Positions 28,566 to 64,000 of a stretch of DNA of 64,000 nucleotides are shown here, in pieces; positions within the stretch are counted from its first letter, which is position 1, and each line of letters starts with the position of its first letter. The position numbers and the translations under genes are program-made. Location: assembly GCA_956465555.1 (NCBI GenBank), contig OY101123.1, forward strand, positions 2,108,001 through 2,172,000. The letters are read 5' to 3'. The stretch comes from Nitzschia sp. pyKryTriq1 (Eukaryota; Bacillariophyta; Bacillariophyceae; Bacillariales; Bacillariaceae). The notes beneath the pieces are model-generated. The model had not been told where the DNA came from, did no database searches, and saw only the letters and a program-made list of their open reading frames with translations.

Positions 28566-29986
28566 TTACTCTCTCGCGGTCGACCCCCCTCGGCCAAAGA
28601 ATCCACGTCGACGTCCTTTGCTGTCTCCAGTACTAGAAAATGCGGACGAGGACAAGTCTCCCTTGTTGCTGGAGATGGTGGTAATGGTGGCCTTGGTGAT
28701 CTTGCCGCCAAGACCAGTGCGCGCCGCCAAGCTTGCTCGTTTGCTGCTGGATTTGGAACTCTTGCTGCTAGTAGTGTTCGTCGTAGAGGCGGGGGTCACA
28801 TCCACTTCTTCTTCCTCTTGAGATGTGGCGGCATTCAGACCCTCCTCTTGTGCTTTGCCTTTTTCCTGTTCTTGTGCTGCTCGTTCCCGCTCATCAAGTG
28901 CCGTTCCTTCTGGTGCATCACGTTCATTGTTTTCTTTACGCGCTCGTTCCTGCTCTTCGCGTACCTTCCTTTCTTTATTCGCCTTCTTCTCCTGAAGTTC
29001 TTTATTCGTAATGACCAACTTAAGATCTTCAATTTTGGATTGCAACTTCTGCTCCTCACGCACTTTACTTGCAATGACAATGTTCAGCTCTTCCACCTTG
29101 GATTTCAACTGTTTGTTTTCGCCTTGAGCCTTGTGGAACTTGTCTTTCCATTCTTGCTTTTCACGTTCAAGTTCGGTATTGAGATTATTTTGTAAAATCA
29201 AATCATCTTGCACCTCGATCAATGTCTTGTTCATCGCTTCTCCGTGGCGTCGGGTCAATGTCTTGGCCATGACAGCAATGATTTGTTCCACAATTTTACT
29301 GCGTTCTTTGCGGTCAGTAGTAGATTCGACTTCGGTAGGCAATCGTCCACGAATATCTTTGGTAAAGATGGATTCCGGAAAGGCTTCCAACAAACATGCG
29401 ACGACATTGTCCTCGGCACCGAATTTGAAGGCCAAGTGCAGCGGTAGCATGTGTTGATCGTCGGTACACTTGACTCCTTGAGGAAAGATTTTGACGAGTT
29501 CTTGGACGAATTGAAAGGGCGCGCCAAAGATCAGAGCTGCATGAATCGGTAGCTGGGACCAACGCACTAGTAGAATTCGTGTTGTAGTAGTATTAGTAGC
29601 AGTTGAATTGAAAAAGACGGAAATTGGTAGTGAGATGATGAATATCACGGCTGAGCTAATAAATAGTGGGGGGGGGGGGGCTGGACAGAACAGCATGACC
29701 ACCCCCACCACCATAACGTACCTTTTCCATCTTCGCTTTGAAATCGTGTTACCCAAGTGCGCGCTTGTCGCTGGGGAGTGATGGGATCGGTAACGGGCGA
29801 AAAGAACATGCCCTTTTCCCATTGCCCGGTCTTGAAAAAGTGCAGACCGGCCACCCATGCCTTTTCTTCAATTGCCTCGTAAAGACTGGTGGGATTCTTG
29901 TCGTAATCGCATTCCCATGTTTCGCCTTCTGCCACGGTATGTTTTTCGATCGGCAACCCGGACAGGCAAAGAGCGTCGAAAGGCAT
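28566..29986 (-). CDS. Ankyrin-like/coiled-coil protein, cluster member 2
   Basis: Two exons, 29986-29722 and 29566-28566, joined in phase 1 (GKG-VRW) across a 155-nt GT..AG intron, giving 421 residues. N-terminal family block: ETWECDYDKNPTSLYEAIEE, GLHFFKTGQWEKGMFF, QARTWVTRFQSEDGKG. The ankyrin-like part is LPIHAALIFGAPFQFVQELVKIFP and HMLPLHLAFKFGAEDNVVACLLEAFP. A long coiled coil (about 190-340) rich in Glu/Lys/Arg follows, then a Ser/Thr tail ending RRGFFGRGGSTARE. It is very close to member 3 over the N-terminal block, even at DNA level (29281-29560 against 31941-32218), which points to recent duplication. Role unknown; a protein scaffold is a reasonable inference. Confidence 0.82.
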
Positions 29987-31010: not shown

Positions 31011-31347
31011 TTATTCCTTGGCGGTCAATCCTCGGCCAAAGAGTCCACGTCGACGTACTTTTTTGCCGCCAATAGATACAACGGAAGCCTCGCCAATGGA
31101 GATGGTGGTCTTGGTAGACTTGGGCTTCTTGGTTCCACCAATGTGCGCCACCACGATTGGGCGTCTGCTGCCGCGAACACTACTACTACTAGTAGGCTTG
31201 CTAGCATTGTTCACGTTTACCTCTTCCTCTTGGGAAGTGGCGTCATCCTGCATCTCCACTGCTTCTTCTCGTTCCTCTTGTTCCAGCAGTGCCAATCTTT
31301 CCCGTAGTTCCTTTTCTTCACGTTCACGTGCTACTCGTTTCGCCAAA

Positions 31348-31381
<34 letters not shown>

Positions 31382-32674
31382 CCTGTTCCTCACGTGCCTT
31401 TCGTTCTTGTTCTTCACGTTCCCGCGCCTTTCGTTGTTGTTCTTCACGTTCACGTGCTACTCGTTTCTTTTCTTCACGAAGTGCCAAAGCTGCTGCTGCT
31501 GCTACTGCTCGTTCCTGTTCCTCATGTGCCTTTCGTTCTTGTTCTTCACGTTCCCGCGCCTTTCGTTCTTGTTCTTCACGTTCACGGGCTTCTTGTTCCT
31601 CTTGTGCACGTGCTTGCTTTGCTTTGCGCGCCATCTGTTCCTGTTGCACTTTACTTGTCACGACCAATTTGAGATCCTCAATTTTCGATTGCAACTTCTT
31701 TTCCTCCCTCTCTTTAGTTGCAATGACCACTTGAAGTTCTTTTAGTTGGGACTGCAACTGTTTGATATCGACTTGAGACTTTTCGTACTTGCTATTCAAG
31801 TCTTGTTTTTCCAGTTCGAGTTGGGCATTGAGATTGTTTTGCAAAATCAAATCCTCTTGGACTTGGGCGAATGTTTTATTCATCGCCTCTCCATGTCGTC
31901 GGAAGGATGTCTTGGCCATGACGGCAATGATTTGTTCGATAATTTTACTGCGTTCTTTGCGGACTGATGCTGTAGTAGATTCGACTTCGGTAGGCAATCG
32001 TCCACGAATGTCTTTGGTAAAGATGGATTCCGGAAAGGCTTCCAACAAACATGCGACGACATTGTCCTCGGCACCGAATTTAAAGGCCAAGTGCAGCGGC
32101 AGCATGTGTTGATCGTCGGTACACTTGACTCCTTGAGGAAAGATTTTGACAAGTTCTTGGACGAATTGAAAGGGCGCGCCAAAGATGAGAGCCGCATGGA
32201 TCGGAAGCTGGGACCAACGTACTAGTAGAATTCGTGTAGTATAGTATACAGTAGAGTAAGAAATAAGACATCATGTTGAGTGGTTGTGAGACATGGAGAA
32301 AGAAAGCAAAGTCGTCATGCCGACCACCACGACCACGACTACGGGGACGTACCTTTTCCATCTTCATCTTGAAATCGTGTTACCCAAGTACGGGCTTGTC
32401 GCTGGGGAGTAATGGGATCAGTAACGGGGGAAAAGAACATGCCCTTTTCCCATTGTCCAGTCTTGAAAAAGTGCAGACCGGCGACCCATGCCTTTTCTTC
32501 AATCGCTTCATAAAGGCTGGTGGGATTCTTGTCGTAATCGCATTCCCATGTTTCACCGCCGCCGACGCCGGCGCCACCTTGAACAGCTGTAGCTGTAGCT
32601 GTAGCTGTAGGTTTACTAGCTGTAGCTGTAGCTGCAATAACAGCAGCCATGATGCTGCGTCTTTCGATCGACAT
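31011..32674 (-). CDS. Ankyrin-like/coiled-coil protein, cluster member 3
   Basis: Two exons, 32674-32353 and 32221-31011, joined in phase 1 (GKG-VRW) across a 131-nt GT..AG intron at the same place as in member 2, giving 510 residues. The leader includes a Thr-Ala run from a (GCTGTA)n repeat. The family block (ETWECDYDKNPTSLYEAIEE .. GMFFSPVTDPITPQ) and ankyrin-like segment are nearly identical to member 2. The coiled coil (about 210-440) is longer because of repeated EREEQERKARE units interspersed with poly-Ala. The tail ends RRGLFGRGLTAKE. An in-frame ATG at 32842 would add a hydrophobic segment; I prefer 32674 because the relatives start directly before the family block. The OTU gene is divergent from it. 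Confidence 0.82.
31310..31620 (-). repeat. Internal coding repeats of the member-3 coiled coil
   Basis: Repeated TTCACGTTC(C/A)CG(C/T)GCC-type words on the plus strand, about 21-27 bp apart, encode EREEQERKA-type heptads with two poly-Ala blocks (GCTGCTGCT). Much shorter in member 2. Confidence 0.75.
32583..32634 (-). repeat. (AGCTGT)n hexanucleotide, coding
   Basis: Two blocks of a tandem hexamer separated by GGTTTACT; encodes Thr-Ala repeats in the leader of cluster member 3. Confidence 0.75.
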
Positions 32675-48634: not shown

Positions 48635-50461
48635 ATGGGAGTACTCAAAGCCTTGCGCCAACGCTTGAACCGAGGTTCCAAGCGACAAAACCCCTCGGTT
48701 GCCGATTATGGTGACGACGAAAACAAGCTCATCGCGGCCATGGGAGGACGGCCCGGAATGATCGTCAACAAGGTACCGGCATCCCGACGCGGTTCGGATG
48801 CCCGCTCTACTTCCACCAGCGATCGCTCCATGTCGTCCTTTGGTTCTTCCGAAATGCAAGACCATAATCAACAAGCTGTCGAGTGGACTTTGCCCCTGGT
48901 AGACACCGAAGTCACCGAGCCGCAGAGCATGGAAGAAGAAATCAAGCGCTTGAAGGCACTCAACGACTACTTTGTACTGGATGCCGACGGCGAGATCGAG
49001 TTTGATCGGATCACTACCCTGGCAAGTCAGATCTTTGACGTGCCCATCGCCCTCATTTCTCTCGTGGATCTGGGAAGACAGTGGTTCCTATCCAAGGTGG
49101 GACTCGACGCCTCGGAAACGCCTCGCAAGCACGCCTTTTGTGCCCACGTGATCCTCAACAAGTACAAATTGCTCGTTGTTCCCGACGCCACCAAAGACTT
49201 TCGCTTCCAGGACAATCCTCTCGTCAAGGAAGGGCTAAAGATTCGATTTTATGCCGGCGCCGCCCTGGTCAGTCCAGAGGGATACAAACTCGGCACCTTG
49301 TGTATCGTCTCACCAGTCGCGCGCCCCGAAGGTCTGTCGCCGTCACAACAAGCCATGCTCCACGACATGGCGGCCATGGTCATTAGCGCATTGGTCGCTC
49401 GTCGCAATCGACTCCTCAAGGATGACTATGAGAATCGTTTCCTCGATCTCGCCAAGATTTTGATGGACACCAACAAGAGTCTAGAAACGTCCAAGGCGAC
49501 TCTCGAAGCCGTAGTGGCCAAGCAGAATATGGATTCAGAAGATGGCAATGAAGTAATGTCCGTGGCTCGATCGCTAGGCTTTCAATCCAAGATTTGTATG
49601 GCCACCATGAAAAATGTCTTGCAAGACACTGGTTCCGGTGCCACCACCACCACTAGCTGCTCTGCCACACCAGCAACATTGGGTGACTATCGTGACGAAG
49701 GATTTGAGACTACGATTACAGACTACGATAATATCGCCAATGCGAATGATCCAACCACCGATATGGTCAAAGTGTTTGAGAACATCAATGCTCTTATCCC
49801 TACCTTTTCTTTTGATGGAATAGTTACGGTCGATATTGACAAGTCGGTCCCCCATGAAATTGTCGCTGACGATTTGCTGCTCTTTCGATCCATATTCAAC
49901 ATGCTGACTCATTGTATGGGTCAATCCTCGGCGTCGTCATCATCATCAACGTCCATCGCTCCTGAATATAACCACGCTGGACTCCGAATCCGCCGCATGA
50001 AACGGCAAGGAAATGAGCTCTTGGTCCAGTGTCTCAAGCCTGGTGCACCGATGGATACCACTCATGCCAAGGAACTCTTTGGACACAAGGACTCGTTATT
50101 GAGCCCCGTGGCGAGTATGGTCCGATCCATGGGTGGACGATTTGGCATGTTTGAAGGAAAATGGAATCATCAAAATGGAGCTGGTGGTGGTGGTGGTGGG
50201 ACTGCTGCGGCTGCTGGCGTCCAATCGATCTTTTGGTTCCAAATTCCGTACGAGCTTCCGGCCTTTGCCTTGAAGGATCCTTCGTCCAACACTCTGAAGA
50301 CGTCTTTACATCAGACACACATTGCTGCTGCGAGCAGCATGGTGTCTTCAAGCAAGAAGAACACTGCCGGTGTCGGTGCCGGTGCCGGTAGTACCGTCGT
50401 CACTATGGATCCATTCCAAGCCGCACTCCTCGAGGCTGGTTGCGGTGGACGTGGGAGATAA
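48635..50461 (+). CDS. GAF-domain protein with histidine-kinase-like ATPase remnant
   Basis: 608 residues, one exon, ATG 48635. A basic, Ser-rich N-terminus is followed by a GAF domain (about 115-265): FDVPIALISLVDLGRQWFLSK, ETPRKHAFCAHVIL, VVPDATKDFRFQDNP, FYAGAALVSPEGYKLGTLCIV. This is the GAF subtype common in bacterial and diatom sensor kinases. The C-terminal 180 residues (GLRIRRMKRQGNELLVQCL, MVRSMGGRFGMFEGKWN, GVQSIFWFQIPYELP) resemble a GHKL ATPase fold without a clear N box or a phospho-accepting His, so it is probably not an active kinase. The last 183 codons (from 49911) lie within the first unit of the tandem array and are copied twice downstream. This is the only complete copy. 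Confidence 0.85.
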   Translation: MGVLKALRQRLNRGSKRQNPSVADYGDDENKLIAAMGGRPGMIVNKVPASRRGSDARSTSTSDRSMSSFGSSEMQDHNQQAVEWTLPLVDTEVTEPQSMEEEIKRLKALNDYFVLDADGEIEFDRITTLASQIFDVPIALISLVDLGRQWFLSKVGLDASETPRKHAFCAHVILNKYKLLVVPDATKDFRFQDNPLVKEGLKIRFYAGAALVSPEGYKLGTLCIVSPVARPEGLSPSQQAMLHDMAAMVISALVARRNRLLKDDYENRFLDLAKILMDTNKSLETSKATLEAVVAKQNMDSEDGNEVMSVARSLGFQSKICMATMKNVLQDTGSGATTTTSCSATPATLGDYRDEGFETTITDYDNIANANDPTTDMVKVFENINALIPTFSFDGIVTVDIDKSVPHEIVADDLLLFRSIFNMLTHCMGQSSASSSSSTSIAPEYNHAGLRIRRMKRQGNELLVQCLKPGAPMDTTHAKELFGHKDSLLSPVASMVRSMGGRFGMFEGKWNHQNGAGGGGGGTAAAAGVQSIFWFQIPYELPAFALKDPSSNTLKTSLHQTHIAAASSMVSSSKKNTAGVGAGAGSTVVTMDPFQAALLEAGCGGRGR

Positions 50462-50864
50462 ACATGTCGGAGGAGCATTTTGATGATGATGATATTCGTG
50501 ATTTAACATGGCAGCTACGAGTAGATGACTTTTTATATTCTTCTGCAATAATAGTAATGCTCGACCTTTTGAAGCATAGGACTACTTGCGACTATTTGCA
50601 GCTAGTAGTACACACACATTATGTAGTCGTATAGTATATTATCATTATATTATCATATCGATTATTATGTAGTAGTACTCGCACAGTATATAATGCCATT
50701 TGTATGAAACAATGACGATGATCATCAAGGATGTTCTTCTTGTTCTCTTGGCTGTGTTCTTATCTTATTGATGGCCAGAAGAATCGTGGTGCTATCGAGG
50801 AATATACAGCCAAGATAAACAATCTTCAATTTACGTCGGTCCATGAAGAACAAGCATGATCGAA
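50462..50864. other. Convergent spacer between GAF 3' end and lectin gene 3' end
   Basis: 403 bp, TA-rich in the middle (TATATTATCATT words near 50633-50660), present in every unit. The deleted units 4-6 begin within it, at the equivalent of 50631. Confidence 0.6.
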
Positions 50865-51650
50865 TTATCCATACGCCTCCACTTCTGCCAAGATTAGGAA
50901 GTTGGCCACAAACGGCCGAGTGATCTTGACTCCGTAGGCTAAGGTCGAAGGAAACTCAACGGCGATGACTTCACCTGCAATTGACGGTCCTGGATGGTAC
51001 TTGAGCTGGAGAGTTTGCTGCAAGGAACCCAGTAGCTCGACGTTGATGTACTGGGTTCCACTCCAAGCATCCACAGGCGTACGGATGATGATTCTTTTGA
51101 CTTGACCTGGAGTGCTAAACATCACCTGCCACCATTGGTCATTCAAGGAATTCGTCGAACTGGCACTGTTATAATCTCCGTCCACGGCCTTGGATGCACC
51201 CGTGGTGCTGGGATTGAAGGTTGTAAGCTGGGTTGCAGTTCCTCCCCTTGCGAAGTTTGTGCCGCCAGTTGGTGTACCACGAGTATAGTAGACGCTATTC
51301 CTCCAGCTACCACCGCAAATGGTTCCGGGAGTAGCCCCATTGGCGTTGCAGGGTGAGTTGCATCCCGTTTCTGCGCCTAAAAATGTTTCGTACGAATTAT
51401 CATTGTCGCAGAAACAGTGTGAGGCGGCTTGGAGACCAGCATAGGCGAATCCGCCGCCAGGTCGCTGGCGACAATACTGGATGCAGGAACCGATGTGATA
51501 GTTACTCCCAGCATAGTGGCCCATGGCACGTGTCGAGTTATCCTTGAAACAGCCCAAATAAAGTGGAACTGGATTCTGCGCGGCAACAGGAGCGGCCGCG
51601 AACGAGATCCACAACAGGAGGCCGTGAACTGCTGACACTTTCACAATCAT
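50865..51650 (-). CDS. Secreted WSC + discoidin (F5/8 type C) lectin-like protein, copy 1
   Basis: 261 residues, one exon, ATG 51650. Signal peptide of about 25 residues (MIVKVSAVHGLLLWISFAAAPVAAQ). A WSC domain (about 29-120) has its cysteines in order: YLGCFKD, SCIQYCRQR, HCFCDND, GCNSPCNANG, TICGG. A discoidin-like jelly-roll (about 133-261) has SKAVDGDYNSASST, QWWQVMFSTPGQVKRIIIRTP and a closing NFLILAEVEAYG. Both domain types bind carbohydrate, so this is an exported sugar-binding protein, possibly for adhesion or cell-wall polysaccharide; the ligand is not deducible. The frame is open to 51704 but without an earlier ATG. It is repeated five more times to the right edge. It converges with the GAF gene, or with its fragment in units 1-3. 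Confidence 0.9.
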   Translation of the reverse strand: MIVKVSAVHGLLLWISFAAAPVAAQNPVPLYLGCFKDNSTRAMGHYAGSNYHIGSCIQYCRQRPGGGFAYAGLQAASHCFCDNDNSYETFLGAETGCNSPCNANGATPGTICGGSWRNSVYYTRGTPTGGTNFARGGTATQLTTFNPSTTGASKAVDGDYNSASSTNSLNDQWWQVMFSTPGQVKRIIIRTPVDAWSGTQYINVELLGSLQQTLQLKYHPGPSIAGEVIAVEFPSTLAYGVKITRPFVANFLILAEVEAYG

Positions 51651-52861
51651 GAGAATGCGGATACTAACGAGGATGAGCAAGAAGAACGATGGCGATGCTG
51701 GCAAAAGTATGCGAGGACAGCGGTATTGGCTGGATGCAACTCAACAAGAATCTAGAAAGCAACAAGATATGCGAGGTGATCGAAGAAGACGTGCGGATGC
51801 GGGGCGATCGAAGAAGAAGTGCGGATGCTTCTTCATATCATCAGCAGCAGTTCTGCTCTGCGTTGCGTTGCCTGCGTTGCTCGGCGTTCATCGAATACAA
51901 GCACAAAGTGCAGTTAGTGGGAAGAAGGAGACTCCCAGTAATCTGTTCGAGAACAAGATATGTACATAATATCTTCAGCAGCAGTTCTGCTCTGCGTTGC
52001 GTTGCCTGCGTTGCTCGGAGTTCATAGAGTACAAGCACAAAGTGCATTTAGTGGGAAAATGGAGACTCCCAGTAATCTGTTCGAGAACAAGATACAGCTA
52101 CTATCAGCTGCTGCATCCGATACGAATCTTCTTCTTTCCGCCGCCGCAAAGCGTATTTTAGTGTTTTCCCATGAGATTTATGGTAGGCCACCGGCATGGG
52201 CGGCGGAGAAGAAATGGAATAATGAATCCAATAAGTAAAACGATTGCTCGATATTTAAAGCCATGCAAGAAAGGACTTGTATTGATCTTTTCCATAAATG
52301 TTCTGCGTGAACCGACCAAAGAACTCTAATTGCATTCGAAGTCATGCAAGAAAGGACTTGTATTGATCTTTTCCATTATTTATGTTTCGCGTGAACCGAT
52401 CAGATCGATGCAATTCTCTCGGTCGTCAGTAATAAGACGGCAACCCTCGCCAAGTAGTCAGCAGTCAAGTAAGCTTCTGACGAAAAGAGGCCTTTTCTGC
52501 CCATAATCGCTTGTTTTTCACGTTTTGTACCGTTCGAAAATCCAAATAAAACAGTAAGCGCCTTTCCAAAATTCAAATAAAACAGTAAGCGCTTCCCGGA
52601 AAGGATGGAAATATCACGATAATGACATGTACAATCATCAAAAATAGCAAGTAATGAACGATTCCGAGGCGCGTAAAATCCAAAACCGCGCCAACAATGC
52701 CTCCAACGAAAATCAACACTCTGCCATCGGGACAACGATGCTACTAGTAGGTAGTAGCTACGATAGTAGTAGTACTACGAAGGCCTGCCATCGGAAGAGG
52801 ACTCTCCTTCGTCAGCATCCTCATCAGCATTGCCGTATGCACGAGGTAGTCGACAAGAATG
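51651..52861. other. Upstream block of the lectin gene with three nested direct duplications
   Basis: 1.2 kb repeated in every unit. It contains: a ~128-bp duplication (about 51833-51960 and 51961-52095, sharing CAGCAGCAGTTCTGCTCTGC and the end GAACAAGATA); a ~65-bp duplication (about 52262-52321 and 52344-52405, sharing CATGCAAGAAAGGACTTG); and a ~28-bp duplication (about 52537-52564 and 52568-52596, sharing AAATAAAACAGTAAGCGC). The lectin promoter should be here. Confidence 0.7.
51960..52238 (+). CDS. Doubtful small secreted protein, divergent from the lectin gene
   Basis: 92 codons from ATG 51960 with a hydrophobic, signal-like start (MYIISSAAVLLCVALPALLG) and a hydrophilic remainder ending WAAEKKWNNESNK. 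The same frame also stays open through the preceding half of the 128-bp duplication, where it reads as part of a separate 106-codon frame (51649-51969). Six base differences separate the two halves; by eye three are silent and three change residues, so selection is not shown. Counterparts: 54911-55189 (one Ile to Val change), 57862-58140, 60083-60361, 62280-62558. It may be spurious. Confidence 0.25.
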   Translation: MYIISSAAVLLCVALPALLGVHRVQAQSAFSGKMETPSNLFENKIQLLSAAASDTNLLLSAAAKRILVFSHEIYGRPPAWAAEKKWNNESNK

Positions 52862-53412
52862 ATTGTATGGGTCAATCCTCGGCGTCGTCATCATCATCAA
52901 CGTCCATCGCTCCTGAATATAACCACGCTGGACTCCGAATCCGCCGCATGAAACGGCAAGGAAATGAGCTCTTGGTCCAGTGTCTCAAGCCTGGTGCACC
53001 GATGGATACCACTCATGCCAAGGAACTCTTTGGACACAAGGACTCGTTATTGAGCCCCGTGGCGAGTATGGTCCGATCCATGGGTGGACGATTTGGCATG
53101 TTTGAAGGAAAATGGAATCATCAAAATGGAGCTGGTGGTGGTGGTGGTGGGACTGCTGCGGCTGCTGGCGTCCAATCGATCTTTTGGTTCCAAATTCCGT
53201 ACGAGCTTCCGGCCTTTGCCTTGAAGGATCCTTCGTCCAACACTCTGAAGACGTCTTTACATCAGACACACATTGCTGCTGCGAGCAGCATGGTGTCTTC
53301 AAGCAAGAAGAACACTGCCGGTGTCGGTGCCGGTGCCGGTAGTACCGTCGTCACTATGGATCCATTCCAAGCCGCACTCCTCGAGGCTGGTTGCGGTGGA
53401 CGTGGGAGATAA
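52654..53412 (+). pseudogene. Chimeric frame: array junction fused to GAF-protein C-terminus, copy 1
   Basis: 252 codons. The first ~70 come from the unit's upstream block (MNDSEARKIQNRANNASNEN ..); from 52862 it is the C-terminal 183 residues of the GAF protein in the original frame. The GAF domain and the original promoter are absent, so I read it as a 3' fragment created by the tandem duplication; expression from the new upstream sequence is possible. It ends at the equivalent of the GAF stop and faces lectin copy 2. Confidence 0.7.
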
Positions 53413-55812
53413 ACATGTCGGAGGAGCATTTTGATGATGATGATATTCGTGATTTAACATGGCAGCTACGAGTAGATGACTTTTTATATTCTTCTGCAAT
53501 AATAGTAATGCTCGACCTTTTGAAGCATAGGACTACTTGCGACTATTTGCAGCTAGTAGTACACACACATTATGTAGTCGTATAGTATATTATCATTATA
53601 TTATCATATCGATTATTATGTAGTAGTACTCGCACAGTATATAATGCCATTTGTATGAAACAATGACGATGATCATCAAGGATGTTCTTCTTGTTCTCTT
53701 GGCTGTGTTCTTATCTTATTGATGGCCAGAAGAATCGTGGTGCTATCGAGGAATATACAGCCAAGATAAACAATCTTCAATTTACGTCGGTCCATGAAGA
53801 ACAAGCATGATCGAATTATCCATACGCCTCCACTTCTGCCAAGATTAGGAAGTTGGCCACAAACGGCCGAGTGATCTTGACTCCGTAGGCTAAGGTCGAA
53901 GGAAACTCAACGGCGATGACTTCACCTGCAATTGACGGTCCTGGATGGTACTTGAGCTGGAGAGTTTGCTGCAAGGAACCCAGTAGCTCGACGTTGATGT
54001 ACTGGGTTCCACTCCAAGCATCCACAGGCGTACGGATGATGATTCTTTTGACTTGACCTGGAGTGCTAAACATCACCTGCCACCATTGGTCATTCAAGGA
54101 ATTCGTCGAACTGGCACTGTTATAATCTCCGTCCACGGCCTTGGATGCACCCGTGGTGCTGGGATTGAAGGTTGTAAGCTGGGTTGCAGTTCCTCCCCTT
54201 GCGAAGTTTGTGCCGCCAGTTGGTGTACCACGAGTATAGTAGACGCTATTCCTCCAGCTACCACCGCAAATGGTTCCGGGAGTAGCCCCATTGGCGTTGC
54301 AGGGTGAGTTGCATCCCGTTTCTGCGCCTAAAAATGTTTCGTACGAATTATCATTGTCGCAGAAACAGTGTGAGGCGGCTTGGAGACCAGCATAGGCGAA
54401 TCCGCCGCCAGGTCGCTGGCGACAATACTGGATGCAGGAACCGATGTGATAGTTACTCCCAGCATAGTGGCCCATGGCACGTGTCGAGTTATCCTTGAAA
54501 CAGCCCAAATAAAGTGGAACTGGATTCTGCGCGGCAACAGGAGCGGCCGCGAACGAGATCCACAACAGGAGGCCGTGAACTGCTGACACTTTCACAATCA
54601 TGAGAATGCGGATACTAACGAGGATGAGCAAGAAGAACGATGGCGATGCTGGCAAAAGTATGCGAGGACAGCGGTATTGGCTGGATGCAACTCAACAAGA
54701 ATCTAGAAAGCAACAAGATATGCGAGGTGATCGAAGAAGACGTGCGGATGCGGGGCGATCGAAGAAGAAGTGCGGATGCTTCTTCATATCATCAGCAGCA
54801 GTTCTGCTCTGCGTTGCGTTGCCTGCGTTGCTCGGCGTTCATCGAATACAAGCACAAAGTGCAGTTAGTGGGAAGAAGGAGACTCCCAGTAATCTGTTCG
54901 AGAACAAGATATGTACATAGTATCTTCAGCAGCAGTTCTGCTCTGCGTTGCGTTGCCTGCGTTGCTCGGAGTTCATAGAGTACAAGCACAAAGTGCATTT
55001 AGTGGGAAAATGGAGACTCCCAGTAATCTGTTCGAGAACAAGATACAGCTACTATCAGCTGCTGCATCCGATACGAATCTTCTTCTTTCCGCCGCCGCAA
55101 AGCGTATTTTAGTGTTTTCCCATGAGATTTATGGTAGGCCACCGGCATGGGCGGCGGAGAAGAAATGGAATAATGAATCCAATAAGTAAAACGATTGCTC
55201 GATATTTAAAGCCATGCAAGAAAGGACTTGTATTGATCTTTTCCATAAATGTTCTGCGTGAACCGACCAAAGAACTCTAATTGCATTCGAAGTCATGCAA
55301 GAAAGGACTTGTATTGATCTTTTCCATTATTTATGTTTCGCGTGAACCGATCAGATCGATGCAATTCTCTCGGTCGTCAGTAATAAGACGGCAACCCTCG
55401 CCAAGTAGTCAGCAGTCAAGTAAGCTTCTGACGAAAAGAGGCCTTTTCTGCCCATAATCGCTTGTTTTTCACGTTTTGTACCGTTCGAAAATCCAAATAA
55501 AACAGTAAGCGCCTTTCCAAAATTCAAATAAAACAGTAAGCGCTTCCCGGAAAGGATGGAAATATCACGATAATGACATGTACAATCATCAAAAATAGCA
55601 AGTAATGAACGATTCCGAGGCGCGTAAAATCCAAATCCGCGCCAACAATGCCTCCAACGAAAATCAACACTCTGCCATCGGGACAACGATGCTACTAGTA
55701 GGTAGTAGCTACGATAGTAGTAGTACTACGAAGGCCTGCCATCGGAAGAGGACTCTCCTTCGTCAGCATCCTCATCAGCATTGCCGTATGCACGAGGTAG
55801 TCGACAAGAATG
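52862..55812 (+). repeat. Tandem array unit 2 (2951 bp)
   Basis: Same content as unit 1. Differences seen: GTACATAGTATC for GTACATAATATC near 54914, and AAATCC for AAAACC near 55636. Like unit 1 it has CTTATTGATGG near 53716 and the undeleted CTCTCGG near 55367. Confidence 0.95.
53816..54601 (-). CDS. Secreted WSC + discoidin lectin-like protein, copy 2
   Basis: 261 residues, ATG 54601. The translation is identical to copy 1, including signal peptide and all cysteines. It lies 2951 bp from copy 1. It faces the first chimeric GAF fragment (ending 53412) instead of the complete GAF gene. Confidence 0.9.
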   Translation of the reverse strand: MIVKVSAVHGLLLWISFAAAPVAAQNPVPLYLGCFKDNSTRAMGHYAGSNYHIGSCIQYCRQRPGGGFAYAGLQAASHCFCDNDNSYETFLGAETGCNSPCNANGATPGTICGGSWRNSVYYTRGTPTGGTNFARGGTATQLTTFNPSTTGASKAVDGDYNSASSTNSLNDQWWQVMFSTPGQVKRIIIRTPVDAWSGTQYINVELLGSLQQTLQLKYHPGPSIAGEVIAVEFPSTLAYGVKITRPFVANFLILAEVEAYG

Positions 55813-56363
55813 ATTGTATGGGTCAATCCTCGGCGTCGTCATCATCATCAACGTCCATCGCTCCTGAATATAACCACGCTGGACTCCGAATCCGCCGCAT
55901 GAAACGGCAAGGAAATGAGCTCTTGGTCCAGTGTCTCAAGCCTGGTGCACCGATGGATACCACTCATGCCAAGGAACTCTTTGGACACAAGGACTCGTTA
56001 TTGAGCCCCGTGGCGAGTATGGTCCGATCCATGGGTGGACGATTTGGCATGTTTGAAGGAAAATGGAATCATCAAAATGGAGCTGGTGGTGGTGGTGGTG
56101 GGACTGCTGCGGCTGCTGGCGTCCAATCGATCTTTTGGTTCCAAATTCCGTACGAGCTTCCGGCCTTTGCCTTGAAGGATCCTTCGTCCAACACTCTGAA
56201 GACGTCTTTACATCAGACACACATTGCTGCTGCGAGCAGCATGGTGTCTTCAAGCAAGAAGAACACTGCCGGTGTCGGTGCCGGTGCCGGTAGTACCGTC
56301 GTCACTATGGATCCATTCCAAGCCGCACTCCTCGAGGCTGGTTGCGGTGGACGTGGGAGATAA
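55605..56363 (+). pseudogene. Chimeric frame: array junction fused to GAF-protein C-terminus, copy 2
   Basis: Second copy of the 252-codon chimeric frame, with one residue changed in the leader (IQI for IQN, from AAATCC near 55636). The GAF-derived part from 55813 is the same as in copy 1. It is the last GAF fragment in the array; in units 4-6 the frame is cut to 67 codons (for example 58554-58757) by the 728-bp deletion. Confidence 0.7.
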
Positions 56364-58753
56364 ACATGTCGGAGGAGCATTTTGATGATGATGATATTCG
56401 TGATTTAACATGGCAGCTACGAGTAGATGACTTTTTATATTCTTCTGCAATAATAGTAATGCTCGACCTTTTGAAGCATAGGACTACTTGCGACTATTTG
56501 CAGCTAGTAGTACACACACATTATGTAGTCGTATAGTATATTATCATTATATTATCATATCGATTATTATGTAGTAGTACTCGCACAGTATATAATGCCA
56601 TTTGTATGAAACAATGACGATGATCATCAAGGATGTTCTTCTTGTTCTCTTGGCTGTGTTCTTATCTTAGTGATGGCCAGAAGAATCGTGGTGCTATCGA
56701 GGAATATACAGCCAAGATAAACAATCTTCAATTTACGTCGGTCCATGAAGAACAAGCATGATCGAATTATCCATACGCCTCCACTTCTGCCAAGATTAGG
56801 AAGTTGGCCACAAACGGCCGAGTGATCTTGACTCCGTAGGCTAAGGTCGAAGGAAACTCAACGGCGATGACTTCACCTGCAATTGACGGTCCTGGATGGT
56901 ACTTGAGCTGGAGAGTTTGCTGCAAGGAACCCAGTAGCTCGACGTTGATGTACTGGGTTCCACTCCAAGCATCCACAGGCGTACGGATGATGATTCTTTT
57001 GACTTGACCTGGAGTGCTAAACATCACCTGCCACCATTGGTCATTCAAGGAATTCGTCGAACTGGCACTGTTATAATCTCCGTCCACGGCCTTGGATGCA
57101 CCCGTGGTGCTGGGATTGAAGGTTGTAAGCTGGGTTGCAGTTCCTCCCCTTGCGAAGTTTGTGCCGCCAGTTGGTGTACCACGAGTATAGTAGACGCTAT
57201 TCCTCCAGCTACCACCGCAAATGGTTCCGGGAGTAGCCCCATTGGCGTTGCAGGGTGAGTTGCATCCCGTTTCTGCGCCTAAAAATGTTTCGTACGAATT
57301 ATCATTGTCGCAGAAACAGTGTGAGGCGGCTTGGAGACCAGCATAGGCGAATCCGCCGCCAGGTCGCTGGCGACAATACTGGATGCAGGAACCGATGTGA
57401 TAGTTACTCCCAGCATAGTGGCCCATGGCACGTGTCGAGTTATCCTTGAAACAGCCCAAATAAAGTGGAACTGGATTCTGCGCGGCAACAGGAGCGGCCG
57501 CGAACGAGATCCACAACAGGAGGCCGTGAACTGCTGACACTTTCACAATCATGAGAATGCGGATACTAACGAGGATGAGCAAGAAGAACGATGGCGATGC
57601 TGGCAAAAGTATGCGAGGACAGCGGTATTGGCTGGATGCAACTCAACAAGAATCTAGAAAGCAACAAGATATGCGAGGTGATCGAAGAAGACGTGCGGAT
57701 GCGGGGCGATCGAAGAAGAAGTGCGGATGCTTCTTCATATCATCAGCAGCAGTTCTGCTCTGCGTTGCGTTGCCTGCGTTGCTCGGCGTTCATCGAATAC
57801 AAGCACAAAGTGCAGTTAGTGGGAAGAAGGAGACTCCCAGTAATCTGTTCGAGAACAAGATATGTACATAATATCTTCAGCAGCAGTTCTGCTCTGCGTT
57901 GCGTTGCCTGCGTTGCTCGGAGTTCATAGAGTACAAGCACAAAGTGCATTTAGTGGGAAAATGGAGACTCCCAGTAATCTGTTCGAGAACAAGATACAGC
58001 TACTATCAGCTGCTGCATCCGATACGAATCTTCTTCTTTCCGCCGCCGCAAAGCGTATTTTAGTGTTTTCCCATGAGATTTATGGTAGGCCACCGGCATG
58101 GGCGGCGGAGAAGAAATGGAATAATGAATCCAATAAGTAAAACGATTGCTCGATATTTAAAGCCATGCAAGAAAGGACTTGTATTGATCTTTTCCATAAA
58201 TGTTCTGCGTGAACCGACCAAAGAACTCTAATTGCATTCGAAGTCATGCAAGAAAGGACTTGTATTGATCTTTTCCATTATTTATGTTTCGCGTGAACCG
58301 ATCAGATCGATGCAATTCTCGGTCGTCAGTAATAAGACGGCAACCCTCGCCAAGTAGTCAGCAGTCAAGTAAGCTTCTGACGAAAAGAGGCCTTTTCTGC
58401 CCATAATCGCTTGTTTTTCACGTTTTGTACCGTTCGAAAATCCAAATAAAACAGTAAGCGCCTTTCCAAAATTCAAATAAAACAGTAAGCGCTTCCCGGA
58501 AAGGATGGAAATATCACGATAATGACATGTACAATCATCAAAAATAGCAAGTAATGAACGATTCCGAGGCGCGTAAAATCCAAAACCGCGCCAACAATGC
58601 CTCCAACGAAAATCAACACTCTGCCATCGGGACAACGATGCTACTAGTAGGTAGTAGCTACGATAGTAGTAGTACTACGAAGGCCTGCCATCGGAAGAGG
58701 ACTCTCCTTCGTCAGCATCCTCATCAGCATTGCCGTATGCACGAGGTAGTCGA
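55813..58753 (+). repeat. Tandem array unit 3 (2941 bp)
   Basis: Retains the GAF fragment but shows later-unit changes: CTTAGTGATGG near 56667 and a 2-bp loss (CTCTCGG to CTCGG) near 58317. It ends 8 bp early at ..GTAGTCGA, where unit 4 starts with the deleted form. Confidence 0.95.
56767..57552 (-). CDS. Secreted WSC + discoidin lectin-like protein, copy 3
   Basis: 261 residues, ATG 57552. Translation identical to copies 1 and 2. It is the last copy that faces a GAF fragment. Confidence 0.9.
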   Translation of the reverse strand: MIVKVSAVHGLLLWISFAAAPVAAQNPVPLYLGCFKDNSTRAMGHYAGSNYHIGSCIQYCRQRPGGGFAYAGLQAASHCFCDNDNSYETFLGAETGCNSPCNANGATPGTICGGSWRNSVYYTRGTPTGGTNFARGGTATQLTTFNPSTTGASKAVDGDYNSASSTNSLNDQWWQVMFSTPGQVKRIIIRTPVDAWSGTQYINVELLGSLQQTLQLKYHPGPSIAGEVIAVEFPSTLAYGVKITRPFVANFLILAEVEAYG

Positions 58754-60974
58754 ATAGTATATTATCATTATATTATCATATCGATTATTATGTAGTAGTA
58801 CTCGCACAGTATATAATGCCATTTGTATGAAACAATGACGATGATCATCAAGGATGTTCTTCTTGTTCTCTTGGCTGTGTTCTTATCTTAGTGATGGCCA
58901 GAAGAATCGTGGTGCTATCGAGGAATATACAGCCAAGATAAACAATCTTCAATTTACGTCGGTCCATGAAGAACAAGCATGATCGAATTATCCATACGCC
59001 TCCACTTCTGCCAAGATTAGGAAGTTGGCCACAAACGGCCGAGTGATCTTGACTCCGTAGGCTAAGGTCGAAGGAAACTCAACGGCGATGACTTCACCTG
59101 CAATTGACGGTCCTGGATGGTACTTGAGCTGGAGAGTTTGCTGCAAGGAACCCAGTAGCTCGACGTTGATGTACTGGGTTCCACTCCAAGCATCCACAGG
59201 CGTACGGATGATGATTCTTTTGACTTGACCTGGAGTGCTAAACATCACCTGCCACCATTGGTCATTCAAGGAATTAGTCGAACTGGCACTGTTATAATCT
59301 CCGTCCACGGCCTTGGATGCACCCGTGGTGCTGGGATTGAAGGTTGTAAGCTGGGTTGCAGTTCCTCCCCTTGCGAAGTTTGTGCCGCCAGTTGGTGTAC
59401 CACGAGTATAGTAGACGCTATTCCTCCAGCTACCACCGCAAATGGTTCCGGGAGTAGCCCCATTGGCGTTGCAGGGTGAGTTGCATCCCGTTTCTGCGCC
59501 TAAAAATGTTTCGTACGAATTATCATTGTCGCAGAAACAGTGTGAGGCGGCTTGGAGACCAGCATAGGCGAATCCGCCGCCAGGTCGCTGGCGACAATAC
59601 TGGATGCAGGAACCGATGTGATAGTTACTCCCAGCATAGTGGCCCATGGCACGTGTCGAGTTATCCTTGAAACAGCCCAAATAAAGTGGAACTGGATTCT
59701 GCGCGGCAACAGGAGCGGCCGCGAACGAGATCCACAACAGGAGGCCGTGAACTGCTGACACTTTCACAATCATGAGAATGCGGATACTAACGAGGATGAG
59801 CAAGAAGAACGATGGCGATGCTGGCAAAAGTATGCGAGGACAGCGGTATTGGCTGGATGCAACTCAACAAGAATCTAGAAAGCAACAAGATATGCGAGGT
59901 GATCGAAGAAGACGTGCGGATGCGGGGCGATCGAAGAAGAAGTGCGGATGCTTCTTCATATCATCAGCAGCAGTTCTGCTCTGCGTTGCGTTGCCTGCGT
60001 TGCTCGGCGTTCATCGAATACAAGCACAAAGTGCAGTTAGTGGGAAGAAGGAGACTCCCAGTAATCTGTTCGAGAACAAGATATGTACATAATATCTTCA
60101 GCAGCAGTTCTGCTCTGCGTTGCGTTGCCTGCGTTGCTCGGAGTTCATAGAGTACAAGCACAAAGTGCATTTAGTGGGAAAATGGAGACTCCCAGTAATC
60201 TGTTCGAGAACAAGATACAGCTACTATCAGCTGCTGCATCCGATACGAATCTTCTTCTTTCCGCCGCCGCAAAGCGTATTTTAGTGTTTTCCCATGAGAT
60301 TTATGGTAGGCCACCGGCATGGGCGGCGGAGAAGAAATGGAATAATGAATCCAATAAGTAAAACGATTGCTCGATATTTAAAGCCATGCAAGAAAGGACT
60401 TGTATTGATCTTTTCCATAAATGTTCTGCGTGAACCGACCAAAGAACTCTAATTGCATTCGAAGTCATGCAAGAAAGGACTTGTATTGATCTTTTCCATT
60501 ATTTATGTTTCGCGTGAACCGATCAGATCGATGCAATTCTCGGTCGTCAGTAATAAGACGGCAACCCTCGCCAAGTAGTCAGCAGTCAAGTAAGCTTCTG
60601 ACGAAAAGAGGCCTTTTCTGCCCATAATCGCTTGTTTTTCACGTTTTGTACCGTTCGAAAATCCAAATAAAACAGTAAGCGCCTTTCCAAAATTCAAATA
60701 AAACAGTAAGCGCTTCCCGGAAAGGATGGAAATATCACGATAATGACATGTACAATCATCAAAAATAGCAAGTAATGAACGATTCCGAGGCGCGTAAAAT
60801 CCAAAACCGCGCCAACAATGCCTCCAACGAAAATCAACACTCTGCCATCGGGACAACGATGCTACTAGTAGGTAGTAGCTACGATAGTAGTAGTACTACG
60901 AAGGCCTGCCATCGGAAGAGGACTCTCCTTCGTCAGCATCCTCATCAGCATTGCCGTATGCACGAGGTAGTCGA
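58754..60974 (+). repeat. Tandem array unit 4 (2221 bp, GAF part deleted)
   Basis: Begins ATAGTATATTATC directly after GTAGTCGA; the 728 bp corresponding to the last 8 bp of a full unit plus 49911-50630 are missing. The two sides of the lost segment both carry GTAGTCG. It contains only the lectin gene and its flanks. Confidence 0.95.
58988..59773 (-). CDS. Secreted WSC + discoidin lectin-like protein, copy 4
   Basis: 261 residues, ATG 59773. Same translation; one silent change (ACT for ACG in the STNS stretch, plus-strand AATTAGTCG near 59273) is shared only with copy 5. Confidence 0.9.
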   Translation of the reverse strand: MIVKVSAVHGLLLWISFAAAPVAAQNPVPLYLGCFKDNSTRAMGHYAGSNYHIGSCIQYCRQRPGGGFAYAGLQAASHCFCDNDNSYETFLGAETGCNSPCNANGATPGTICGGSWRNSVYYTRGTPTGGTNFARGGTATQLTTFNPSTTGASKAVDGDYNSASSTNSLNDQWWQVMFSTPGQVKRIIIRTPVDAWSGTQYINVELLGSLQQTLQLKYHPGPSIAGEVIAVEFPSTLAYGVKITRPFVANFLILAEVEAYG

Positions 60975-63171
60975 ATAGTATATTATCATTATATTATCAT
61001 ATCGATTATTATGTAGTAGTACTCGCACAGTATATAATGCCATTTGTATGAAACAATGACGATGATCATCAAGGATGTTCTTCTTGTTCTCTTGGCTGTG
61101 TTCTTATCTTAGTGATGGCCAGAAGAATCGTGGTGCTATCGAGGAATATACAGCCAAGATAAACAATCTTCAATTTACGTCGGTCCATGAAGAACAAGCA
61201 TGATCGAATTATCCATACGCCTCCACTTCTGCCAAGATTAGGAAGTTGGCCACAAACGGCCGAGTGATCTTGACTCCGTAGGCTAAGGTCGAAGGAAACT
61301 CAACGGCGATGACTTCACCTGCAATTGACGGTCCTGGATGGTACTTGAGCTGGAGAGTTTGCTGCAAGGAACCCAGTAGCTCGACGTTGATGTACTGGGT
61401 TCCACTCCAAGCATCCACAGGCGTACGGATGATGATTCTTTTGACTTGACCTGGAGTGCTAAACATCACCTGCCACCATTGGTCATTCAAGGAATTAGTC
61501 GAACTGGCACTGTTATAATCTCCGTCCACGGCCTTGGATGCACCCGTGGTGCTGGGATTGAAGGTTGTAAGCTGGGTTGCAGTTCCTCCCCTTGCGAAGT
61601 TTGTGCCGCCAGTTGGTGTACCACGAGTATAGTAGACGCTATTCCTCCAGCTACCACCGCAAATGGTTCCGGGAGTAGCCCCATTGGCGTTGCAGGGTGA
61701 GTTGCATCCCGTTTCTGCGCCTAAAAATGTTTCGTACGAATTATCATTGTCGCAGAAACAGTGTGAGGCGGCTTGGAGACCAGCATAGGCGAATCCGCCG
61801 CCAGGTCGCTGGCGACAATACTGGATGCAGGAACCGATGTGATAGTTACTCCCAGCATAGTGGCCCATGGCACGTGTCGAGTTATCCTTGAAACAGCCCA
61901 AATAAAGTGGAACTGGATTCTGCGCGGCAACAGGAGCGGCCGCGAACGAGATCCACAACAGGAGGCCGTGAACTGCTGACACTTTCACAATCATGAGAAT
62001 GCGGATACTAACGAGGATGAGCAAGAAGAACGATGGCGAGCGGTATTGGCTGGATGCAACTCAACAAGAATCTAGAAAGCAACAAGATATGCGAGGTGAT
62101 CGAAGAAGACGTGCGGATGCGGGGCGATCGAAGAAGAAGTGCGGATGCTTCTTCATATCATCAGCAGCAGTTCTGCTCTGCGTTGCGTTGCCTGCGTTGC
62201 TCGGCGTTCATCGAATACAAGCACAAAGTGCAGTTAGTGGGAAGAAGGAGACTCCCAGTAATCTGTTCGAGAACAAGATATGTACATAATATCTTCAGCA
62301 GCAGTTCTGCTCTGCGTTGCGTTGCCTGCGTTGCTCGGAGTTCATAGAGTACAAGCACAAAGTGCATTTAGTGGGAAAATGGAGACTCCCAGTAATCTGT
62401 TCGAGAACAAGATACAGCTACTATCAGCTGCTGCATCCGATACGAATCTTCTTCTTTCCGCCGCCGCAAAGCGTATTTTAGTGTTTTCCCATGAGATTTA
62501 TGGTAGGCCACCGGCATGGGCGGCGGAGAAGAAATGGAATAATGAATCCAATAAGTAAAACGATTGCTCGATATTTAAAGCCATGCAAGAAAGGACTTGT
62601 ATTGATCTTTTCCATAAATGTTCTGCGTGAACCGACCAAAGAACTCTAATTGCATTCGAAGTCATGCAAGAAAGGACTTGTATTGATCTTTTCCATTATT
62701 TATGTTTCGCGTGAACCGATCAGATCGATGCAATTCTCGGTCGTCAGTAATAAGACGGCAACCCTCGCCAAGTAGTCAGCAGTCAAGTAAGCTTCTGACG
62801 AAAAGAGGCCTTTTCTGCCCATAATCGCTTGTTTTTCACGTTTTGTACCGTTCGAAAATCCAAATAAAACAGTAAGCGCCTTTCCAAAATTCAAATAAAA
62901 CAGTAAGCGCTTCCCGGAAAGGATGGAAATATCACGATAATGACATGTACAATCATCAAAAATAGCAAGTAATGAACGATTCCGAGGCGCGTAAAATCCA
63001 AAACCGCGCCAACAATGCCTCCAACGAAAATCAACACTCTGCCATCGGGACAACGATGCTACTAGTAGGTAGTAGCTACGATAGTAGTAGTACTACGAAG
63101 GCCTGCCATCGGAAGAGGACTCTCCTTCGTCAGCATCCTCATCAGCATTGCCGTATGCACGAGGTAGTCGA
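60975..63171 (+). repeat. Tandem array unit 5 (2197 bp)
   Basis: As unit 4 but with a further 24-bp loss just upstream of the lectin ATG (junction GATGGCGAGCGG near 62033-62044). Confidence 0.95.
61209..61994 (-). CDS. Secreted WSC + discoidin lectin-like protein, copy 5
   Basis: 261 residues, ATG 61994. Same translation and same silent marker as copy 4. The 24-bp deletion lies about 40 bp upstream of the ATG, so the protein is intact, but the 5' UTR or promoter differs from the other copies. Confidence 0.9.
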   Translation of the reverse strand: MIVKVSAVHGLLLWISFAAAPVAAQNPVPLYLGCFKDNSTRAMGHYAGSNYHIGSCIQYCRQRPGGGFAYAGLQAASHCFCDNDNSYETFLGAETGCNSPCNANGATPGTICGGSWRNSVYYTRGTPTGGTNFARGGTATQLTTFNPSTTGASKAVDGDYNSASSTNSLNDQWWQVMFSTPGQVKRIIIRTPVDAWSGTQYINVELLGSLQQTLQLKYHPGPSIAGEVIAVEFPSTLAYGVKITRPFVANFLILAEVEAYG

Positions 63172-64000
63172 ATAGTATATTATCATTATATTATCATATC
63201 GATTATTATGTAGTAGTACTCGCACAGTATATAATGCCATTTGTATGAAACAATGACGATGATCATCAAGGATGTTCTTCTTGTTCTCTTGGCTGTGTTC
63301 TTATCTTAGTGATGGCCAGAAGAATCGTGGTGCTATCGAGGAATATACAGCCAAGATAAACAATCTTCAATTTACGTCGGTCCATGAAGAACAAGCATGA
63401 TCGAATTATCCATACGCCTCCACTTCTGCCAAGATTAGGAAGTTGGCCACAAACGGCCGAGTGATCTTGACTCCGTAGGCTAAGGTCGAAGGAAACTCAA
63501 CGGCGATGACTTCACCTGCAATTGACGGTCCTGGATGGTACTTGAGCTGGAGAGTTTGCTGCAAGGAACCCAGTAGCTCGACGTTGATGTACTGGGTTCC
63601 ACTCCAAGCATCCACAGGCGTACGGATGATGATTCTTTTGACTTGACCTGGAGTGCTAAACATCACCTGCCACCATTGGTCATTCAAGGAATTCGTCGAA
63701 CTGGCACTGTTATAATCTCCGTCCACGGCCTTGGATGCACCCGTGGTGCTGGGATTGAAGGTTGTAAGCTGGGTTGCAGTTCCTCCCCTTGCGAAGTTTG
63801 TGCCGCCAGTTGGTGTACCACGAGTATAGTAGACGCTATTCCTCCAGCTACCACCGCAAATGGTTCCGGGAGTAGCCCCATTGGCGTTGCAGGGTGAGTT
63901 GCATCCCGTTTCTGCGCCTAAAAATGTTTCGTACGAATTATCATTGTCGCAGAAACAGTGTGAGGCGGCTTGGAGACCAGCATAGGCGAATCCGCCGCCA
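63172..64000 (+). repeat. Tandem array unit 6, cut by the window edge
   Basis: Starts with the deleted form (ATAGTATATTATC) and runs to the end of the window. It has the CTTAGTGATGG marker but the ACG (not ACT) form of the silent site, so it is not a simple copy of unit 5. Confidence 0.95.
63406..64000 (-). CDS. Secreted WSC + discoidin lectin-like protein, copy 6 (5' end outside window)
   Basis: Contains the discoidin part and the C-terminal half of the WSC domain (to the CFCDND and YAGLQAASH region); the signal peptide and the first WSC cysteines lie beyond position 64000. The visible sequence matches copies 1-3 including the ACG silent site. Confidence 0.88.
   Translation of the reverse strand, partial: GGGFAYAGLQAASHCFCDNDNSYETFLGAETGCNSPCNANGATPGTICGGSWRNSVYYTRGTPTGGTNFARGGTATQLTTFNPSTTGASKAVDGDYNSASSTNSLNDQWWQVMFSTPGQVKRIIIRTPVDAWSGTQYINVELLGSLQQTLQLKYHPGPSIAGEVIAVEFPSTLAYGVKITRPFVANFLILAEVEAYG

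Follow-up and report, generated by a model that had tools for sequence, protein, structure and literature searches.

The present locus raises the question of how a single gene came to stand as six near-identical copies in a row, and of what such an amplification would do for its host, most likely a diatom. We analysed a 64-kb stretch of DNA (hereafter named the window), which corresponds to C9:2108001-2172000 in a 40.65-Mb genome of 20 contigs, and used coordinates extended past the window end where needed. Window self-comparison and a whole-genome search confirmed an earlier sequence-only reading in that six head-to-tail copies lie on contig C9. The near-identical units occupy this one locus as a tandem array at 49911-65404, with the left boundary at exactly 49911 in the self-comparison. 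The array leaves the window, as had been claimed, and its right end lies at 65404 (C9:2173404). The contig ends 10 kb further on, and no telomere-like repeat was seen near that end on inspection by eye. The repeat pieces forming the array were 98.6-99.9% identical across 0.8-5.9 kb in the self-comparison, and chance is therefore excluded. The reading had also placed six complete copies in 14 kb; only five are complete inside the window, which holds 595 bp of the sixth, but the sixth is complete past the window end.

Table 1. Positions of the array units, gene copies, junctions and neighbouring features (window coordinates; positions above 64000 are extended coordinates)
Feature	Position	Strand	Remarks
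GAF-domain gene next to the array, 608-aa open frame	48635..50461	+	GAF domain by Pfam
Unit 1, long, 2951 bp	49911..52861		GAF-gene 3' end, WSC-F5/8C gene and upstream spacer
Unit 2, long, 2951 bp	52862..55812		
Unit 3, 2933 bp	55813..58745		left side long-type; right end is a short-type junction
Unit 4, short, 2221 bp	58746..60966		GAF passenger absent
Unit 5, short, 2197 bp	60967..63163		private 24-bp deletion upstream of ATG
Unit 6, short, 2221 bp	63164..64000		cut by the window; with a short tail reaches 65404 (C9:2173404)
Copy 1, 261-aa secreted-looking WSC + F5/8C (F-type-lectin-like) protein	50865..51650	-	
Copy 2, same 261-aa WSC + F5/8C protein	53816..54601	-	
Copy 3, same 261-aa WSC + F5/8C protein	56767..57552	-	
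Copy 4, same 261-aa WSC + F5/8C protein	58988..59773	-	synonymous ACG>ACT, common to copy 5
Copy 5, same 261-aa WSC + F5/8C protein	61209..61994	-	24-bp deletion starts ~45 nt upstream of ATG (near 62038/62039)
Copy 6, cut by the window end	63406..64000	-	ATG frame 63406-64191
Long-type junction, ATTG microhomology	52862..52865		second at 55813-55816
Short-type junction, GTAGTCG microhomology	58746..58752		others at 60967 and 63164
Dispersed-repeat fragment, first 35 bp	52831..52865		fixed end TGCC[C/G]TATGCACGAGG...; holds both right-hand breakpoints
Second dispersed repeat, in the spacer of every unit	52438..52776		eight other genome places, pieces 93-95% identical
134-bp tandem repeat, 1.9 copies, upstream of the gene	51835..52094		also on C12
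Chimeric ORF, 252 aa	52654..53412	+	crosses the junction of units 1 and 2; a second lies at 55605-56363

Two kinds of unit make up the array. The long units (~2.95 kb) begin inside the neighbouring GAF-domain gene and include its 3' end, the last 551 bp of that gene lying in unit 1 and so being copied, whereas the short units (~2.2 kb) are without this GAF passenger. At both junction types the junction letters are shared by both parent sequences, 4 bp (ATTG) for the long type and 7 bp (GTAGTCG) for the short type. ATTG occurs 15 times in the unit, a 4-bp match being common by chance. GTAGTCG occurs only twice within the 2951-bp unit, and both sites are used at junctions; they are separated by 728 bp, and since 2951 - 728 - 2 = 2221, this spacing explains the length of the short unit. 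The chimeric ORF consists of spacer sequence joined in frame to the copied C-terminus of the GAF gene, and no Pfam match was found in its 252 residues. About three copies of the 134-bp tandem repeat found upstream of the WSC gene were also observed on C12 (L027:590-1004).

The six copies differ at very few places. The 2222-column core alignment of the copies varied at four substitution sites and at two indels, one of 2 bp and the other a 24-bp deletion. One substitution and the 2-bp indel split copies 1-2 from copies 3-6, one substitution is common to copies 4 and 5, two substitutions are private to copy 2 and the 24-bp deletion is private to copy 5; the three long units are identical in their 720-bp left part. 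All six reading frames are intact. The mechanically called ORF has 279 aa counted from a TTG, and the downstream ATG gives a protein of 261 aa that is the same in 6/6 copies, which bears out the claim of identical translation; the coding sequences vary only at a synonymous site (51153), where copies 4 and 5 stand apart from the rest. Pairwise substitution among the copies had a mean of 0.00078 and a maximum of 0.0018. At the mutation rate reported for Phaeodactylum, 4.77e-10 per site per generation (PMC6604790), this divergence would correspond to about 0.8 million generations (mean) and 1.9 million (maximum), if that rate applies here and if there was no conversion. A recent amplification of the secreted-looking WSC + F5/8C gene is supported by these results; as for the choice between recent origin and conversion, variants shared by neighbouring copies would be expected under both and fit either.

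The explanation of the whole that we favour, with a probability of roughly 0.7, is a duplication at microhomology followed by unequal exchange and loss of the passenger, yielding more of one unchanged extracellular polysaccharide-binding protein. A once single-copy gene with a WSC and an F-type-lectin-like domain would have been tandemly duplicated via the ATTG match that the dispersed-repeat fragment upstream of the WSC gene shares with the 3' part of the adjacent GAF gene, by what we infer to be template switching or end joining. The array would then have grown through unequal exchange among its near-identical units, and a later event at the GTAGTCG match would have removed the GAF passenger, after which the short unit multiplied. 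This order of events is a probable one and not unique, as independent duplications could have produced the short and the long units. Since each unit carries the full coding sequence together with ~1.2 kb of upstream DNA, the likeliest effect would be more of one unchanged extracellular protein, which may bind wall or matrix polysaccharide through its WSC domain.

We analysed the sequence at the breakpoints further. The GTAGTCG and ATTG right-hand breakpoints both fall inside the first 35 bp of the dispersed-repeat fragment, which is uninterrupted, over 68 bp, at the right flank of the array (L008:3370-3437). A search with the right flank, in which 40 of 113 candidates were scored, gave at least 46 matches: six come from the array, four from the second spacer repeat, a further one is 41 bp long, and the remaining 35 are dispersed pieces. 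Outside the array, the breakpoint repeat is present as at least 35 pieces of 63-82 bp, with 90-100% identity, on ten contigs. Among the 29 matches listed with flanks (28 of them outside the array) and judged by eye, 28 begin at one and the same TGCC, and 12 diverge from the common tail at differing positions. Being fixed at one end and ragged at the other, the breakpoint repeat looks like truncated retroposons. The 68-bp sequence (L008:3370-3437 and L031-L056) is in some places doubled, namely at L055, L056 and L032. The presence of two breakpoints in one repeat fragment may be chance. A further reading is that microhomology-mediated amplification in this genome breaks repeatedly at the fixed end of the retroposon-like repeat, and that this end seeded an adaptive amplification of the sole WSC gene found, with a partner domain of changed ligand; this seems to us distinctly unlikely. 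Breakage driven by a hairpin was rejected: the repeat is palindromic-looking by eye, yet its DNA fold was no better than those of shuffled sequences (z 0.12).

The near-identity of the copies is also what would be seen if one or two copies had been multiplied in the assembly. We consider such an artefact very improbable, because four substitutions and two indels divide the copies into sets that are nested and for the most part made up of neighbours, and because there are two unit lengths with different precise junctions; furthermore, 81-84% of the tandem duplicates of Seminavis robusta were reported to be real by coverage (PMC7335047). We regard the array as real and young in this assembly. 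Mobile gene capture was rejected as well: the whole-genome search gave seven matches to the gene, six in a row on C9 and one of 267 bp (71% identity) on C4, and apart from this partial C4 match the gene is without a dispersed copy. Nor was a relative confirmed that would speak for a viral or bacterial origin: two single-protein searches, which detect close relatives only, gave 9 pattern matches in viral contigs and 43 in prokaryote genomes, none of which was confirmed. A search of phages gave no match.

A closer competitor accepts the same duplication and unequal exchange but dispenses with selection for dosage, so that the array would be transient copy-number noise, variable between strains. 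As it shares the origin proposed above, it rivals only the dosage part of our explanation, and we give it somewhat less than an even chance. It would account for the very low divergence between copies and for the GAF fragment that hitch-hikes in the long units, and it agrees with the high frequency of tandem duplicates in diatoms, 4594 genes having been reported in Seminavis robusta (PMC7335047). On the other hand, the number of copies, the loss of the passenger with the spread of the short unit, and the six intact frames fit selection, although none of these is decisive, and in such a young array intact frames carry little weight. In the 50-kb left flank of the window, our sole control, there was one other tandem pair of >200 bp, with pieces 84-93% identical. 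An older tandem pair of ORFs was observed on the minus strand at 28566-29858 and 31011-32105, with a shared stretch and, as judged by eye, charged coiled-coil-like tails; its DNA is 84-93% identical in pieces in the window self-comparison.

To understand what the amplified gene may encode, we consider the protein next. It begins with a signal-peptide-like stretch, which is followed by a WSC domain with eight cysteines and by an F5/8C (F-type-lectin-like) domain. The N-terminus, MIVKVSAVHGLLLWISFAAAPVAA, resembles a signal peptide as judged by eye, and it was the most hydrophobic stretch in a hydropathy scan, with a 19-residue mean of 1.74 compared with 1.26 for the best stretch beyond residue 30. 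These two observations suggest that the protein is secreted. The WSC domain (PF01822) scored 42.6 bits against a Pfam cut-off of 27.8 and was matched over positions 1-82 of 82. Its eight cysteine residues are Cys 34, 56, 60, 79, 81, 97, 101 and 112, and up to eight conserved cysteine residues have been described for this domain (PMC12879055). A six-frame search, performed exon by exon, gave six WSC matches in the genome, all within the array; the array gene is the only WSC gene found in the 40.65 Mb. The best solved relatives of the domain are those of Kremen 1 (E 6.5e-6). Unlike a membrane-anchored sensor of the Wsc1 type, the array protein has no second hydrophobic stretch matching the N-terminal one in strength, and it is probably not such a sensor. 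It also differs from WSC proteins generally in pairing the WSC domain with an F-type-lectin-like domain; the brown-algal WSC proteins described in one report have a CAP domain instead (PMC12879055). Two structure predictions of the protein had pLDDT values of 45 and 49, too low for use on the jellyroll fold.

The C-terminal domain matched PF22633 (F5_F8_type_C_2) with 28.3 bits, slightly above the cut-off of 27.8, and the classical PF00754 with 24.8 bits, below its cut-off of 28.2. Among solved structures it matched SmPAF weakly (E 0.0006) across the whole domain and, also weakly, a fucolectin-related protein. Nine F5/8C matches were found in the genome, namely the six of the array, a 585-aa protein on C4, a SUN-domain protein and APC10; the last two were rejected as further discoidin-like lectins. 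The C4 protein (L010:3298-5055) is secreted-looking and cysteine-rich. Its C-terminal F-type lectin domain, a paralogue of the array domain with 44% identity, has a match to FBP32, itself an F-type lectin, at 2.7e-21 and retains the fucose triad. F-type lectins have been described as carrying the fucose motif HX24RXDX4(R/K), with a His-Arg-Arg triad, and the calcium motif h2DGx (PMC5712786). In the C4 domain, the triad places are occupied by His, Arg and Arg. The His and the first Arg are separated by 26 residues, the same spacing as from His52 to Arg79 in the eel lectin, compared with 24 in the published formula (PMC5712786); Glu serves as the acidic residue of this domain, and the second Arg lies one place further on. 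In a two-sequence alignment with the C4 domain, within a gapped region, the array domain has Ser, Pro and Gly in place of His, Arg and Arg, and it is without a counterpart of the ten-residue loop and the adjacent Cys pair of C4; the phmmer alignment with SmPAF also placed Ser at the His position. The calcium motif is present as AVDGD, AVDG being kept in both diatom domains.

Canonical fucose binding by the array protein appears unlikely, because the triad residues are replaced in these gapped alignments, and with the triad absent, sugar binding, if there is any, would have to involve the WSC domain or an altered site. The likeness to F-type lectins (eel agglutinin, FBP32, SmPAF and the fucolectin-related protein) lies in the weak whole-domain match and the kept calcium motif; the replacement of all three triad residues and the absence of the cysteine pair from the alignment set the domain apart. 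We therefore treat "lectin", the name given in the sequence-only reading, as an uncertain label: the WSC and F5/8C-type domains are there, but the His-Arg-Arg triad is absent by alignment. The replaced triad, the missing loop and Cys pair and the kept AVDGD make us lean towards a C-terminal domain that does not bind fucose and has another ligand or a structural role, in which case the protein would be better described as a matrix component of WSC type than as an F-type lectin. This view draws on two-sequence alignments across a gapped region, and triad-less F-type lectins, which may bind other sugars, have been described (PMC5712786). It is compatible with our explanation of the array by microhomology duplication and unequal exchange.

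Brown algae, like diatoms, are stramenopiles. Their WSC domain has been termed a putative carbohydrate-binding domain (PMC12879055), a kelp was reported to show a raised level of one WSC gene in its reproductive tissue (PMC11333212), and an enrichment of WSC-containing glucan-binding proteins was reported for the extracellular matrix of a fungus, S. indica (PMC9252488). Because of these reports, we propose, by analogy, a matrix role for the array protein; a role in adhesion, mucilage or recognition, as previously suggested, would be a conjecture. Every unit has 1169-1213 bp of upstream DNA before the ATG, so each copy could be expressed, and raised dosage is plausible for this reason.

Tandem gene arrays are already an established pattern in diatoms, and in other respects the array is nothing out of the ordinary for them. 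In Seminavis robusta, tandem duplicates were reported to be frequent and mostly real, and to include ricin B-like lectins (PMC7335047). The present array resembles those of Seminavis in clustering copies of a gene of carbohydrate-binding type, the Seminavis expansions being described as largely species-specific (PMC7335047); it differs in its domain family, in that the six proteins are still identical and in that two junction types can be read. If real and expressed, the array would be a young amplification caught before protein divergence, in which both junction types can still be read. In that case it would hint at an extracellular protein of which the alga has lately required large amounts, and would offer a clean case for measuring copy-number change between strains.

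Several minor observations were made in the same genome. No Rfam match was found in the window or in the right flank of the array (L008), and no tRNA in the 64-kb window. The best solved match of the PsbO protein was 8iwh, which we take to be a diatom photosystem. The silicon-transporter family gave eight matches in the genome, all above the cut-off, which makes a diatom the most likely host without proving it, since the family also occurs in a few algae other than diatoms; three silicon-transporter matches lie inside 10 kb at C1:307304-317295.
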